The position numbers were made by a program, and so were the translations under genes. Below are positions 8,462 through 61,670 of a stretch of DNA of 64,000 nt, piece after piece (the first letter of the stretch is position 1; every line of letters starts with the position of its first letter). The stretch is from an uncultured Fidelibacterota bacterium (GTDB lineage: Bacteria; Fidelibacterota; Marinisomatia; Marinisomatales; TCS55). A model generated the notes under the pieces. That model did no database searches. It worked only from the letters and a program-made list of their open reading frames with translations, and was not told the origin of the DNA. The DNA is taken from assembly GCA_902581045.1 (NCBI GenBank), contig CACHMU010000001.1, positions 17,676-81,675 on the forward strand, read 5' to 3'.

Positions 8462-9868
8462 ATGGCACATATAAAATTTCAGAGAACAATAGCAAATCAA
8501 ACATCCTGTATAGGGGTTGGATTACATACAGGGGTTGAATCAAAAATTACTTTTAAGCCTGCTCCAGAAAATTATGGAATCCGATTTAAGAGAACAGATA
8601 TAGAGGGTGGATTAGAAATTAGAGCAGATATTGATCATGTTGTTGATATTTCTAGAGGGACAACGATTGAAGAAAATGGAGTAAGAATCCATACCGTTGA
8701 GCATGCATTGGCAGCCTGCGTTGGTATCGGTCTAGACAATGTATTAATCGAATTAACTGATAAGGAACCTCCAGTTATGGATGGAAGTTCAATTGATTTT
8801 GTTGAGGCTCTTTTAAAAGCAGGGATTGTAAAACAAGATGCCCCTAGAAACTATCTTCATATTGATGAGGCTGTAGGTTATTCAGATCCTTCAAGAGGCG
8901 TTGATATTCATATAATGCCATCGGATCAATTCAGAGTAACGTTTATGATTGATTATGAATATAAAACACTGGGTACGCAATTTACTACAATGGAAGAATT
9001 GGAGAAAAACTTTGCAAAAGACATAGCTCCAGCACGAACATTCTGTTTTTTAAGTGAGGTTGAAACTCTTAAAGAAGAAGGTTTAATTAAAGGTGGGAAT
9101 TTAGATAATGCGGTAGTGATTGTGGATAAAGAAATTGATCAACAAGAAGCTCAAAATTTAAAGAAGCTATTTGGTATAAATACAAAAATTAGTCTTGGTG
9201 CAAATGGAACATTAAATGGAAAAGAATTAAGATTTGAGAATGAACCTGTGCGACATAAGGCACTTGATCTTATAGGTGATTTAGCATTGCTAGGTATGCC
9301 ACTTCAAGGACATGTCATTGCTTCTAAAAGTGGACATGCAGCAAATGTAGAATTAGTAAAAAAGATTAAAAAAGTTTATCAGAAAAAAATTCTACAGCAA
9401 AAATATCAACATTTTGATAAAGGCGGTTTTATTGATATTAATTCTATTTTAAATCTTCTTCCGCACCGCTATCCATTTGTTTTGGTAGATCGTATTGTTG
9501 ATATTACCCCTGGAGAAAAATTAACAGCATTTAAAAATGTCACGATTAATGAACCTTTTTTCCAGGGACATTTCCCTACCCAACCAGTAATGCCCGGTGT
9601 TTTAGTTCTAGAAGCAATGGCGCAAGCCGGTGCATTTTTAGTATTAAATAGTATTGATAATCCAATGAAAAAGAATATGTTTTTCTCTGCTCTATCGGAT
9701 TCAAAGTTTCGTCATCCGATTATACCTGGTGACCAACTACGCCTTGAGATGTCAGTTGATAAATTTCGCTTAGGAACTGCATTACTTATAGGTAAGGGCT
9801 ATGTAGGGGACAAACTTGTTGCTGAAGGAAAATTAAAAGCAACGGTGGTGGACCGGGCAGGAGCCTGA
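8462..9868 (+). CDS. Bifunctional LpxC deacetylase / FabZ-type 3-hydroxyacyl-ACP dehydratase fusion
   Basis: N-terminal LpxC (TSCIGVGLHTG, HTVEHALAA, HKALDLIGDLALLG) and C-terminal FabZ (LLPHRYPFVLVDRI, GHFPTQPVMPGVLVLEAMAQ). Confidence 0.96.
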   Translation: MAHIKFQRTIANQTSCIGVGLHTGVESKITFKPAPENYGIRFKRTDIEGGLEIRADIDHVVDISRGTTIEENGVRIHTVEHALAACVGIGLDNVLIELTDKEPPVMDGSSIDFVEALLKAGIVKQDAPRNYLHIDEAVGYSDPSRGVDIHIMPSDQFRVTFMIDYEYKTLGTQFTTMEELEKNFAKDIAPARTFCFLSEVETLKEEGLIKGGNLDNAVVIVDKEIDQQEAQNLKKLFGINTKISLGANGTLNGKELRFENEPVRHKALDLIGDLALLGMPLQGHVIASKSGHAANVELVKKIKKVYQKKILQQKYQHFDKGGFIDINSILNLLPHRYPFVLVDRIVDITPGEKLTAFKNVTINEPFFQGHFPTQPVMPGVLVLEAMAQAGAFLVLNSIDNPMKKNMFFSALSDSKFRHPIIPGDQLRLEMSVDKFRLGTALLIGKGYVGDKLVAEGKLKATVVDRAGA

Positions 9869-9872
9869 TCCC

Positions 9873-10640
9873 ATTTCCATACATCAAACAGCAATAGTTT
9901 CACCAAAAGCCAACATAGGTCAAAATATTGATGTTGGACCATATACAATTATTGAAGAAAATGTAATAATTGGCGATAATACCTCTATTGGCAATCATAA
10001 TACGATTTGTTCTGGAACATCAATTGGTGCCAATTGTAAAATTTTTCATAATACATCATTAGGTGAAACCCCTCAGGATATGAAATATGATGGCGAAAAA
10101 ACTCAAACAATAATAGGCGATAATGTCACTATACGAGAATCTGTAACAATAAATCGAGGTACAGTAGCTTTTGGTAAAACACTTGTTGGAAATAATGTCT
10201 TATTGATGACAGGAACTCATATAGCTCATGATTGTATAGTGGGTAATAATGTGGTGATGGCAAATCTTGCTACCTTAGGAGGGCATGTAGAGATAGGTGA
10301 TTGGGCAAATATAGGTGGAGGAGTTATGGTACATCAATTTGTAAAAGTTGGTACACAATCACTAATTGGCGGTGGTTTTACAGCTAAACAAGATGTTCCT
10401 CCTTATATTATTGTATCAGGTGCACCATTACGTTTTGTTGGGATAAATAAAATTGGATTAGAAAGAAGAGGTTTTGGGAAAGAGACTAGAGAAATAATTA
10501 AGCAAGCATATAGAAAATATTTTGTATCTAAGTTTAATCGAGGTCAAGCAATCGACTACATTAAAAGAAGTCTGCCTCAGATTGAAGAAATAAAAAATAT
10601 AGTTGAGTTTATAGATTCAAGTGAACGAGGTATTATTTAA
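9873..10640 (+). CDS. lpxA: UDP-N-acetylglucosamine acyltransferase, probable ATT start
   Basis: Listed ORF starts at ATG 10080, but the frame is open upstream and encodes ISIHQTAIVSPKANIGQNIDVGPYTIIEENVIIGD, the LpxA N-terminus. No NTG codon between stop 9834 and 10080. AGGAG (9859-9863) lies 9 nt before ATT 9873. Confidence 0.88.
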   Translation: MSIHQTAIVSPKANIGQNIDVGPYTIIEENVIIGDNTSIGNHNTICSGTSIGANCKIFHNTSLGETPQDMKYDGEKTQTIIGDNVTIRESVTINRGTVAFGKTLVGNNVLLMTGTHIAHDCIVGNNVVMANLATLGGHVEIGDWANIGGGVMVHQFVKVGTQSLIGGGFTAKQDVPPYIIVSGAPLRFVGINKIGLERRGFGKETREIIKQAYRKYFVSKFNRGQAIDYIKRSLPQIEEIKNIVEFIDSSERGII

Positions 10641-38149: not shown

Positions 38150-38899
38150 CTAATTAGATTTCCCTTGAGATACAATATTTGCTAACTTTTCTTGCAAATC
38201 ACTTGAATTACCAAGATAATAATTTTTTGTAGGACTTAGCTTTTTATCCAATTCATATACAAGAGGAATTCCTGTTGGTATATTTAATTTTATTATATCT
38301 TCATCAGAAGTTTGATCTAAAATTTTTATTAACGCTCTTAGTGAATTTCCATGCGCAACTATTAAAATTTTTTTTCCTGAAATAATTTCTGGTAAAATAG
38401 TATCTTGCCATGAAGGCATGACTCTCTTAACAGTATCTTTTAAGCATTCGCCTCTTGGCATCTCGCTTTTTTGAAGGTTTTTATATTTTTTGTCAAATTG
38501 TGGATGACGATTATCTTCTAGTTCTAGTAAGGGTGGAGGAGTCTCGTAGCTCCTTCTCCATAAAAAAACCTGTTCATCTCCATATTTTTTAGCTGTTTCG
38601 GATTTATTCAAGCCTTGTAATGCTCCGTAGTGTCGTTCATTTAAGCGCCAATCATATTGAATAGGAATATCATGAATATCCATTCTTTTTAAGCATATTT
38701 TCATTGTTTGAATTGCGCGATTTAATAAAGAAGTAAAAACTAAATCAAATGAAAATAATTCTTTGCGAAGCAAGTCTCCAGCTTTTTTTGCTTCTTTTAT
38801 CCCATCAGTGGTTAATTTAACATCAGTCCAGCCCGTAAAACGATTTTTTAAGTTCCATTGGCTTTGTCCATGACGTAGTAGAACTATTTTATAATTAAT
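38150..38899 (-). CDS. gpmA: 2,3-bisphosphoglycerate-dependent phosphoglycerate mutase, probable ATT start
   Basis: Listed ORF starts at TTG 38773 and lacks the catalytic motif. The upstream frame encodes INYKIVLLRHGQSQWNLKNRFTGWTDVKLT; in-frame stop TAA at 38914-38912; only non-NTG codons available. Confidence 0.88.
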   Translation of the reverse strand: MNYKIVLLRHGQSQWNLKNRFTGWTDVKLTTDGIKEAKKAGDLLRKELFSFDLVFTSLLNRAIQTMKICLKRMDIHDIPIQYDWRLNERHYGALQGLNKSETAKKYGDEQVFLWRRSYETPPPLLELEDNRHPQFDKKYKNLQKSEMPRGECLKDTVKRVMPSWQDTILPEIISGKKILIVAHGNSLRALIKILDQTSDEDIIKLNIPTGIPLVYELDKKLSPTKNYYLGNSSDLQEKLANIVSQGKSN

Positions 38900-38944
38900 T
38901 ATTAACTCTCTTTAATTATTATAATAGTTTTTTAATGAATATTA

Positions 38945-39955
38945 TCATTTTTTAATTTTTTCCCACCAGTCTTCGTTTTCTATATACCATTCAATTGTTT
39001 TAGTTATACCTGAGTCAAATGTTTCTTTTGGATTCCACCCTAATTCATTTCTTATCTTCGAAGCATCGATTGCATATCTAAAGTCATGCCCTGGGCGGTC
39101 TTCAACATATGAAATTAAACTTTTATAAGATTTTCCATTTTTTCTTGGTTTTATTTTATCTAAAATTGAGCAAAGTTTCATTACTACATCAATATTTCTA
39201 ATTTCGTTATTTCCGCCTATATTATAAGTTTCTCCTATTACACCTTTATTTAAAACTGTATGAATTGCCTCACAATGATCTTCAACGAAAAGCCAATCTC
39301 TTACATTATCTCCCTTTCCATATACAGGAAGTTCTTTTTCATTTAAACAGTTATCGATTATAACTGGAATTAATTTTTCAGGAAATTGAAAAGGACCATA
39401 ATTATTTGAACAGTTTGTAATCAATGTTGGCAAACCATATGTATTATGCCAAGCTCTAACTAAATGGTCCGCACCTGCTTTAGATGCAGAATAAGGTGAG
39501 CTGGGATTCAAGGGGGTTTTTTCTGTGAAAAAATCTCCTTCATCAATAGATCCATATACTTCATCTGTGCTAATCTGTAAAAATTTAAACGATTTATTAG
39601 AATTTTCTCGCCAATAGTTTGTTGATGCAGTTAGAAGAACAGCAGTTCCAAGAACATTTGTTGAAATAAAGTCAAGTGGTTTGTCGATTGATCTATCCAC
39701 ATGTGATTCAGCAGCAAAATGTATGATAGCGTCAGGTTCAAATTTATCTATTGAATTAGTGATTAATTTATAATCACAAATATCTCCCTTAATAAATTTG
39801 TAGTTTGGATGACGGGAAACATCAGATACATTTTCTAATAAGCCAGCATATGTGAGCTTATCGATATTTAAGATTGTATTATTATAGGAAAATATTTGTT
39901 TTACAAGAAAGTTACTTCCTATAAATCCACAACCTCCGGTAACAAGTAATTTCAT
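38945..39955 (-). CDS. rfbB: dTDP-glucose 4,6-dehydratase
   Basis: LVTGGCGFIGSNFLV, HFAAESHVDRSI, STDEVYGS, YSASKAGADHLVRAW. Confidence 0.96.
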   Translation of the reverse strand: MKLLVTGGCGFIGSNFLVKQIFSYNNTILNIDKLTYAGLLENVSDVSRHPNYKFIKGDICDYKLITNSIDKFEPDAIIHFAAESHVDRSIDKPLDFISTNVLGTAVLLTASTNYWRENSNKSFKFLQISTDEVYGSIDEGDFFTEKTPLNPSSPYSASKAGADHLVRAWHNTYGLPTLITNCSNNYGPFQFPEKLIPVIIDNCLNEKELPVYGKGDNVRDWLFVEDHCEAIHTVLNKGVIGETYNIGGNNEIRNIDVVMKLCSILDKIKPRKNGKSYKSLISYVEDRPGHDFRYAIDASKIRNELGWNPKETFDSGITKTIEWYIENEDWWEKIKK

Positions 39956-53777: not shown

Positions 53778-54416
53778 ATTAAATATGACATTTATATTTT
53801 TGACTTTGATGGAACTTTAGTGCAATCAAATGAAATTAAAAAAAATGCTTATTTTACAGTGACTAGTAAAATTGAAAATTCTAGAAAAATTATAAATGAA
53901 ATAATCAATCATCATCCAAACTTTACAAGAGAAGAAGTTTTCAAGTGTTTTATTTCAAAGATTCCAAATCCAGATAGCTTAAATTTTTCAGTTGATGATT
54001 TAGTTAATTCTTATTCAAGAATTTGTCAAAATGAAATTGCCTTAGCTAAAGAAATACCTTTAGCTGAAGAAACTTTAATTTACCTAAAAAAAAAATCGAA
54101 ATCTTTATACATAAGTTCTGCAACACCTTTCAAACATCTTAAAAGACTTCTTCATTTAAGAGGTATTCTAAAATATTTTAATGGATTTTATGGACATCCA
54201 AAAACAAAACATGAACATATACAAGAAATTAAAAAGAAGGAGAAAATAGATTTAGATAAAATTATATATATAGGAGATTCAGAGATAGACCGATTTTCTG
54301 CTGCTCAAGCTGGTTGTGGTTTTATTGGAATAGGAAATGATAATTCTAGATTTAATAAAAATCCAAAAATTTTAATTAATAACTATAAATATTTTCTAAA
54401 ACATATAAGCTCCTAG
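53778..54416 (+). CDS. HAD-superfamily hydrolase, probable ATT start
   Basis: Listed ORF starts at GTG 53820, after the catalytic motif. Upstream frame reads IKYDIYIFDFDGTLVQSNEI (HAD motif I). GGGAGA (53765-53770) lies 7 nt before ATT 53778. Later IYIGDSEIDRFSAAQAG (motif IV). Confidence 0.87.
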   Translation: MKYDIYIFDFDGTLVQSNEIKKNAYFTVTSKIENSRKIINEIINHHPNFTREEVFKCFISKIPNPDSLNFSVDDLVNSYSRICQNEIALAKEIPLAEETLIYLKKKSKSLYISSATPFKHLKRLLHLRGILKYFNGFYGHPKTKHEHIQEIKKKEKIDLDKIIYIGDSEIDRFSAAQAGCGFIGIGNDNSRFNKNPKILINNYKYFLKHISS

Positions 54417-59918: not shown

Positions 59919-61670
59919 ATTTCAATTTTAAGAGAAAATCATAATTCTAATTTAGATATTATTCTTCTTGGCTTCCCAGAAAGAGCAGGCATCGCACTAT
60001 TAAGGAGCTTATGTAAATTAGGCAATAAACCAAAAATTACAATTATTACTGATGACAAAGATAATATTGCAAGATTATCTAATAATAAATCAACTATTCA
60101 TTATCATAGTCCATTGGAAATTGATTTTAAAAAAGGGTCTGCTGAACTATTAAATCTTATTAATTGTAATAGAAAATTTTTAATCCCAACAAATGATAAA
60201 TATTTGAAATGGTTAGAGCTTAATTTTAAGCATTTAGACTCAAAACATGTTTTACCGTACAATGATAAAATATCAATTCAAAATATAACAGATAAGTTTA
60301 AAATATTGAAAATTGCGAATGAAATAAATATAAAAATCCCTAAATCAATTTTAATAAAGAGTGAAGAAGAAATTTATAAATATAAAAAAAATATTTCTTT
60401 TCCATGTATAATTAAACCAATTTATTCTATATCAATAAAAAATAATCAGTTTTGTAAATTAAATGTCGAAAAAGCAAATTCGTTTAAAGAATTAGAAATG
60501 CTCATTTCATTAAAACTTCCTCAAAGCCACTTACTTATTCAAGAGTTTTTATCCGGTACGGGTCAAGCTGTAAACATTTTTTCATATAATGGTGATCTTA
60601 CACACTATTTTGAATATCGTAGATTGCGTGAGCCAGGATTTGGTGGTCCTAGTTCCCATAGAGAAAGCTTGAAGCCCAACAAAAAGACTTTAAAAAAATG
60701 TAAAGCTTTAATAAAAGCTTTTAATTACACTGGTGTTGGCATGGTTGAGTTTAGAAAAAGTAATGGCAATTTGTATTTAATGGAATTTAATGCTCGATTT
60801 TGGGGTTCATTATCATTACCCATTTTTTGTGAAATGGATTTTCCTAAAATTTTATATAGTAAGTTTTTAAATAACACTGAATCAAATCTTAATGTGATCG
60901 ATACAAACTATAGAGTAGGTTTAAAAGCTAGAAATTTAGTCTCAGATATACAATGGCATCAAAAAAAAGGTATATTTAAATGTATAAGATTATTTTTTGA
61001 CATAATCTTTTTATTGCCATTTAGGATATTATTTAAAAAAGAGATATTAGATATTGAAAGTATATATGATCCTAAGCCCTCTTTAGAAATATATAAAAGA
61101 ACTATTAAGTATTTTATAAAGAAATTTTATATTTTTTTTTATAATGCTTATTTTACAATATTAAAGATAAGATATAGAAATGAATGTAAAAATATCATCA
61201 GTGATATTAAGAATATACATTTTGTTTGTTTAGGGAATATTAATAGAAGTGTTTTTGCAGAACGTTATTTAAAGAAACAAATACATTCAATTAAAAGTAG
61301 TATCATCAATGATTATAATATTGAATCAAGTGGAACACACATTTTAACTAACAGACCTTCACCATATTTAGCTATAAGTGCAGCAAAAGAATTGAAAGTT
61401 TCCTTAAAAAATCATAAATCTAAAAGCATCTATAGACAAAATATTAAAGATAGTAAAAAAACTTTGTTTTTTGTTATGGATTCAAATCAGTATATAGATT
61501 TAAAAAAGATATTTTTTAAATGTAAAATATATCCGCTAGGTATTTTTTCATCGAAGAGTATAAATATACCTGATCCATATAAAAAAAATAATGAAGATTA
61601 TAAAAAGAGTTTTTTAAAAATTGTTGATTCACTAAATAATTTTATCAGCTTTACCCAAACAAAATTCTAA
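59919..61670 (+). CDS. ATP-grasp domain protein fused to a C-terminal low-molecular-weight protein phosphatase, probable ATT start
   Basis: Listed ORF starts at TTG 60114. Open frame upstream encodes ISILRENHNSNLDIILLGFPERAGIALLRSLCKLGNKPKITIITDD with no NTG. ATP-grasp: FPCIIKPIYS, GVGMVEFRKSNGNLYLMEFNARFWGSL. LMW-PTP: FVCLGNINRSVFAERYL and IPDPYKK. Confidence 0.85.
   Translation: MSILRENHNSNLDIILLGFPERAGIALLRSLCKLGNKPKITIITDDKDNIARLSNNKSTIHYHSPLEIDFKKGSAELLNLINCNRKFLIPTNDKYLKWLELNFKHLDSKHVLPYNDKISIQNITDKFKILKIANEINIKIPKSILIKSEEEIYKYKKNISFPCIIKPIYSISIKNNQFCKLNVEKANSFKELEMLISLKLPQSHLLIQEFLSGTGQAVNIFSYNGDLTHYFEYRRLREPGFGGPSSHRESLKPNKKTLKKCKALIKAFNYTGVGMVEFRKSNGNLYLMEFNARFWGSLSLPIFCEMDFPKILYSKFLNNTESNLNVIDTNYRVGLKARNLVSDIQWHQKKGIFKCIRLFFDIIFLLPFRILFKKEILDIESIYDPKPSLEIYKRTIKYFIKKFYIFFYNAYFTILKIRYRNECKNIISDIKNIHFVCLGNINRSVFAERYLKKQIHSIKSSIINDYNIESSGTHILTNRPSPYLAISAAKELKVSLKNHKSKSIYRQNIKDSKKTLFFVMDSNQYIDLKKIFFKCKIYPLGIFSSKSINIPDPYKKNNEDYKKSFLKIVDSLNNFISFTQTKF

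Follow-up and report, generated by a model that had tools for sequence, protein, structure and literature searches.

How does translation of gpmA begin? This gene (38150..38899, minus strand) lies in the 64,000-nucleotide stretch of DNA that we analysed, hereafter the window, and encodes a 2,3-bisphosphoglycerate-dependent phosphoglycerate mutase (dPGM). A first-pass annotation had reported that no NTG start precedes the catalytic RHG motif and that the ATT at 38899 fits instead. The first claim was borne out by direct reading of all three frames. After an in-frame TAA (38912..38914, minus strand), the minus-strand codons are AGA GAG TTA ATA ATT AAT TAT AAA ATA GTT CTA CTA CGT CAT GGA. The frame listing holds no NTG, in any frame, from this TAA to the CAT of the RHG motif. 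In the gpmA frame, NTG first occurs as TTG 38773, beyond the catalytic histidine, as had been claimed. Translation from the proposed ATT (38897..38899, minus strand), a near-cognate codon adjoined by ATA 38902, yields 249 amino acids. The purine-rich AAAGAGAG (38906..38913, minus strand), a putative weak Shine-Dalgarno (SD) element, ends 6 nt upstream of the ATT. Both details are as the annotation gave them. The upstream neighbour is rfbB (38945..39955, minus strand), encoding dTDP-glucose 4,6-dehydratase (TIGR01181, E 3e-147). Its stop is at 38947-38945 and 45 nt separate this from the ATT, confirming the gap of about 45 nt and the intervening in-frame stop described previously. ATT codons are common in a genome of 30% GC. 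Hence, finding an ATT close to where the start should be is, alone, weak evidence. The real anomaly is that a conserved catalytic motif has no NTG upstream.

The identity of the gene is clear. Its product is a full-length match to NCBIfam NF010713 (E 2e-114; 380.9 bits against a cut-off of 305), matches TIGR01258 (E 2e-108) and also matches solved dPGM structures in the PDB. The 63 columns invariant among 44 homologues are all kept (63/63), RHG motif included. Compared with known GpmA proteins, the window copy is full-length with every invariant residue, but its NTG start codon is missing. The first-pass annotation would have given way to an intact second gpmA with decay of this copy. No second gpmA was found in the 943-kb assembly, which is 58.5% complete, and the invariant columns argue equally against decay. 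This gpmA sits on a long branch (0.9 against a median of 0.16). In the same genome, lpxA (0.37 against 0.08) and rfbB (0.59 against 0.093) are lengthened about as much, so fast evolution is lineage-wide. We rejected pseudogene decay, since there is no lesion, the invariant residues are intact and the long branch is a property of the lineage.

The window genome groups with Candidatus Neomarinimicrobiota. Three g7 genomes share the order rfbB-gpmA, with more DNA between the two genes, and this conserved order is consistent with vertical inheritance of gpmA. No exact DNA match was found in viral contigs. In two congeners, with assemblies 77% and 67% complete, gpmA was not found, and the gene could be dispensable in the genus. 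Neither gpmI nor apgM scored above cut-off in the genus, for which all three assemblies are incomplete. Among family orthologues of gpmA with a readable start, all use ATG and none ATT. The orthologous ATG is mostly at codon 2, directly after the ATT position, and falls within codons -1 to 3 overall. Hence, the position of ATT 38899 matches orthologous starts while the codon itself is not conserved. Because relatives use ATG, the AUU appears to be lineage-specific, belonging to the window genome or to unsampled close kin.

The same anomaly, absent from the first-pass annotation, occurs elsewhere in the window. We screened the window for ORFs whose first NTG comes only after a long open stretch and kept those in which a conserved domain begins in that stretch. 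Three genes beyond gpmA were recovered: lpxA, a HAD-family hydrolase and an ATP-grasp/low-molecular-weight phosphatase. From ATT 9873-9875, lpxA (9873..10640, plus strand; TIGR01852, E 1e-93) has no NTG until 10080. In the stop-to-stop frame, the TIGR01852 alignment begins at residue 15, two residues past the ATT. Upstream is an lpxC-fabZ fusion gene (8462..9868, plus strand; Pfam LpxC and FabA-like). Its TGA stop precedes the lpxA ATT by 4 nt and its end contains AGGAG.

The lpxA start region was read in 76 genomes, 65 of the class and 11 of other classes in the phylum. An AUH codon (AUU, AUC or AUA) without any NTG was found in 60/65 class members, mostly 1-4 nt past the lpxC-fabZ stop. By group, this arrangement was seen in 30/30 members of the family, 27/31 in the rest of the order and 3/4 in the rest of the class. 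The other classes had AUH in 0/11, and all 11 carry ATG, GTG or TTG at the corresponding position (Fisher p 7.6e-10, a descriptive value since related genomes are not independent). Variation between T, C and A at this codon does not prove a start, as an isoleucine codon varies likewise. However, the AUH position is that of the outgroup ATG, and an SD-like motif precedes the codon in 49 of the 60 genes. Several genomes have an in-frame stop only 3-5 codons upstream and lack an NTG in the interval. All three frames are represented in the distance from the lpxC-fabZ stop to the AUH codon, and in some genomes that stop is in the same frame as lpxA. These four observations together point to the AUH codon as the start. 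We rejected the idea that LpxA is made by fusion to, or by a (programmed) frameshift from, lpxC-fabZ, because the relative frame varies between genomes. AUG, though one substitution away, is present in 1/65; hence, we infer selection against AUG at this position. Separately, genome L292 (order f8) has GTC at the lpxA start position, where relatives have ATC or ATT, and NTG is absent. The class-wide lpxA start is firmer, and more surprising, than the lone lineage-specific case of gpmA. In the non-subscription literature searched, we found nothing relevant on an lpxA gene with a non-AUG start or on class-wide use of one.

The HAD-family gene (53778..54416, plus strand) has no NTG before its catalytic DFDGT, and its Pfam HAD_2 match begins at residue 12 of the stop-to-stop frame. 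The candidate start is ATT 53778, which closely follows the upstream stop and has GGGAG 8 nt before it; a CTG start is also possible. The gene for the ATP-grasp and low-molecular-weight phosphatase protein (59919..61670, plus strand) has a candidate start, ATT 59919, one nucleotide past the upstream stop. Its NCBIfam match runs from residue 43 and the first NTG (TTG 60114, residue 70) is inside that match. A search of 81 genomes at E 1e-12 found no close relatives of the two genes, which makes it less certain exactly where they start. The start of infC, which encodes IF3, is AUU in E. coli and AUA in S. aureus, a conserved near-cognate codon with a strong SD. In both congeners (L112 and L113, around base 1490), infC similarly has no upstream NTG and an ATC follows AAAGGAG. 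Hence, the known infC case is present here too, and our method detects it. Judged from these genes, AUU/AUC initiation is evidently in real use in the window lineage.

Such use is not general. Among confidently paired starts of the window genome and its congeners, 117/128 were ATG in both; genome-wide use of AUU as a rule was rejected on these counts. AUU use is a minority device and there is no recoding. No unusual initiator tRNA was seen, and the methionine tRNAs found carry only CAT anticodons. Elsewhere in the genome (G000), three long genes have a signal peptide upstream of the first NTG: C10:20207-22714(-), C7:49599-50735(+) and C2:18598-19467(-). Their candidate starts are ATT, ATA/ATC and CTG. 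A separate set of genes has TGA directly before a conserved stretch, where Cys or Sec is expected: C5:50044-51039(-), C7:43216(+), C20:8391(+), C12:16150(+) and C6:47715(-). Named from sequence, with no family search, these are selD, two Bcp-like peroxiredoxins and two others. All five are likely selenoproteins; no tRNA-Sec scored above cut-off in the incomplete assembly.

We then compared ribosome-binding sites, computing SD duplex dG with a generic anti-SD. Values were -7.5 for lpxA, -7.4 for the HAD gene, -4.4 for gpmA and -0.2 for the ATP-grasp gene, against a median of -0.9 for the 42 ATG genes of the window. The gpmA site beats 36 of these 42, yet its core is only the three bases GAG. 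SD strength tended to be greater at these AUH-start genes than at ATG genes (one-sided p 0.045). This comparison is only suggestive because the lpxA SD is itself part of the lpxC-fabZ coding region and the median dG at random positions in the window is -1.5.

In this assembly gpmA is a single undecayed gene with no NTG start, and lpxA and infC are precedents. We consider that translation probably starts at AUU 38899 and that the gene is functional. The proposal of the first-pass annotation is thereby supported by the orthologous start position, the single intact copy, the ribosome-binding site and the other genes without NTG. The ATG of an intact, vertically inherited dPGM gene would have been replaced by AUU in the window lineage. 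The weak AAAGAGAG element would place the 30S subunit at this codon, where ordinary fMet-tRNA(CAU) would initiate to give (M)NYKIVLLRHG.... The yield of GpmA would presumably be reduced, and some regulation might attach to this step. In this Neomarinimicrobiota lineage, AUU/AUC starts would serve several genes, with lpxA the clearest.

Could the ATT be an artefact? The gene is known from one assembly, possibly derived from a single cell, and a sequencing or amplification error could have turned ATG into ATT. With congener ORFs as queries, 0/325 orthologue-like ORFs were frameshifted across 106,451 aligned residues. The core of 182 long alignments (~69,600 codons) contained one stop and no genuine nonsense codon; this stop sits at a junction, with N in the reference and a new ATG after it. 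Internal stops were taken from the trimmed count, as untrimmed ones are mostly in end regions or shadow ORFs. We estimate that errors destroying start codons are rare, well under one per genome, although one site could still be affected. Furthermore, the anomaly recurs in two other window genes that are non-conserved, and it is very unlikely that errors struck independently three times. Hence, an error at the gpmA start is improbable. An indel fares no better. The two other frames carry stops at 38897/38891 and at 38904/38901/38886, and NTG is absent from every frame, so no single upstream indel can supply a start and this explanation was rejected. Six single substitutions could create an in-frame NTG, ATT to ATG at 38899 among them. 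As a separate observation, a possible CcmH-like gene (a guess from sequence; G000 C6:23899-24321(-)) does not share the frame of an ATG that overlaps the upstream stop. The offset equals one base of an A8 run and may reflect homopolymer error, slippage or decay.

If a real, recent point mutation destroyed the start, gpmA would be a newly silenced allele with decay yet to come. The ATT is one substitution from ATG, relatives have ATG and a search of the two congeners (77% and 67% complete) turned up no gpmA. Conversely, gpmA has no other lesion and retains every invariant residue, the genus has no replacement mutase above cut-off in its incomplete assemblies, and lpxA points to working AUU starts in the lineage. 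We therefore regard silencing as unlikely. Equally, translation might begin at a different non-NTG codon, ATA 38902 or 38887, or by coupling from a 9-codon ORF (38919..38948, minus strand) at the rfbB stop. An ATA adjoins the ATT, and S. aureus provides known examples of AUA starts (PMC13009471). The ORF, a possible candidate coupling element in the frame listing, has an ATG at 38948 overlapping the rfbB stop (ATGA) and ends ~20 nt before the ATT. However, ATA 38902 is just 3 nt from the purine run and a start at ATA 38887 would remove part of the first beta strand. We give this set of alternatives little credence and favour AUU 38899.

Non-AUG starts are already known, and gpmA and lpxA add new examples. 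AUU or AUA starts are established for infC, pcnB, cvfC1, ccpN and citZ (PMC13009471), and IF3 suppresses non-canonical starts (PMC2268962). In S. aureus, the AUU of cvfC1 and the AUA of ccpN and citZ were mapped experimentally, the citZ AUA is confined to the NCTC 8325 lineage, and the non-canonical starts measured in poor medium gave ~10% of AUG expression (PMC13009471). These S. aureus genes, like ours, are linked to metabolism, while our cases are known from sequence alone; lpxA and the HAD gene have a good SD, and gpmA a weak one. The gpmA case resembles citZ, being lineage-specific and in central carbon metabolism. According to Binns and Masters (2002), as summarised in PMC13009471, the AUU of E. 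coli pcnB limits expression of an enzyme. Here too an AUU start is on an enzyme gene, although the gene is unrelated and the summary reports no class-wide conservation for pcnB. The infC start is likewise AUH in the window genome's congeners, as in E. coli and S. aureus. However, gpmA and lpxA encode metabolic enzymes and not, as infC does, an initiation factor able to regulate itself through codon choice. The infC codon is also non-canonical among relatives, which is true of lpxA (60/65) but not of gpmA, whose relatives use ATG.

By default, gene finders take only ATG, GTG and TTG. Hence, AUH-start genes are truncated or missed in annotation; gpmA would be left without its catalytic histidine, and the first 69 residues of lpxA would be lost. 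In lpxA, the class-wide AUU/AUC start offers a natural and apparently old example of an enzyme gene with low-efficiency initiation. This fixed non-AUG start probably limits how much LpxA is made after termination at lpxC-fabZ. Two ideas become testable: that the ratio of LpxA to LpxC-FabZ is set by the choice of start codon, and that IF3 level tunes lipid A synthesis. More tentatively, this Neomarinimicrobiota class might use AUU/AUC initiation as a standing regulatory device, with lpxA limiting commitment to lipid A after lpxC-fabZ. The fast-evolving window genus might then have extended AUU to more genes, including glycolytic gpmA, perhaps via relaxed initiation-codon discrimination.
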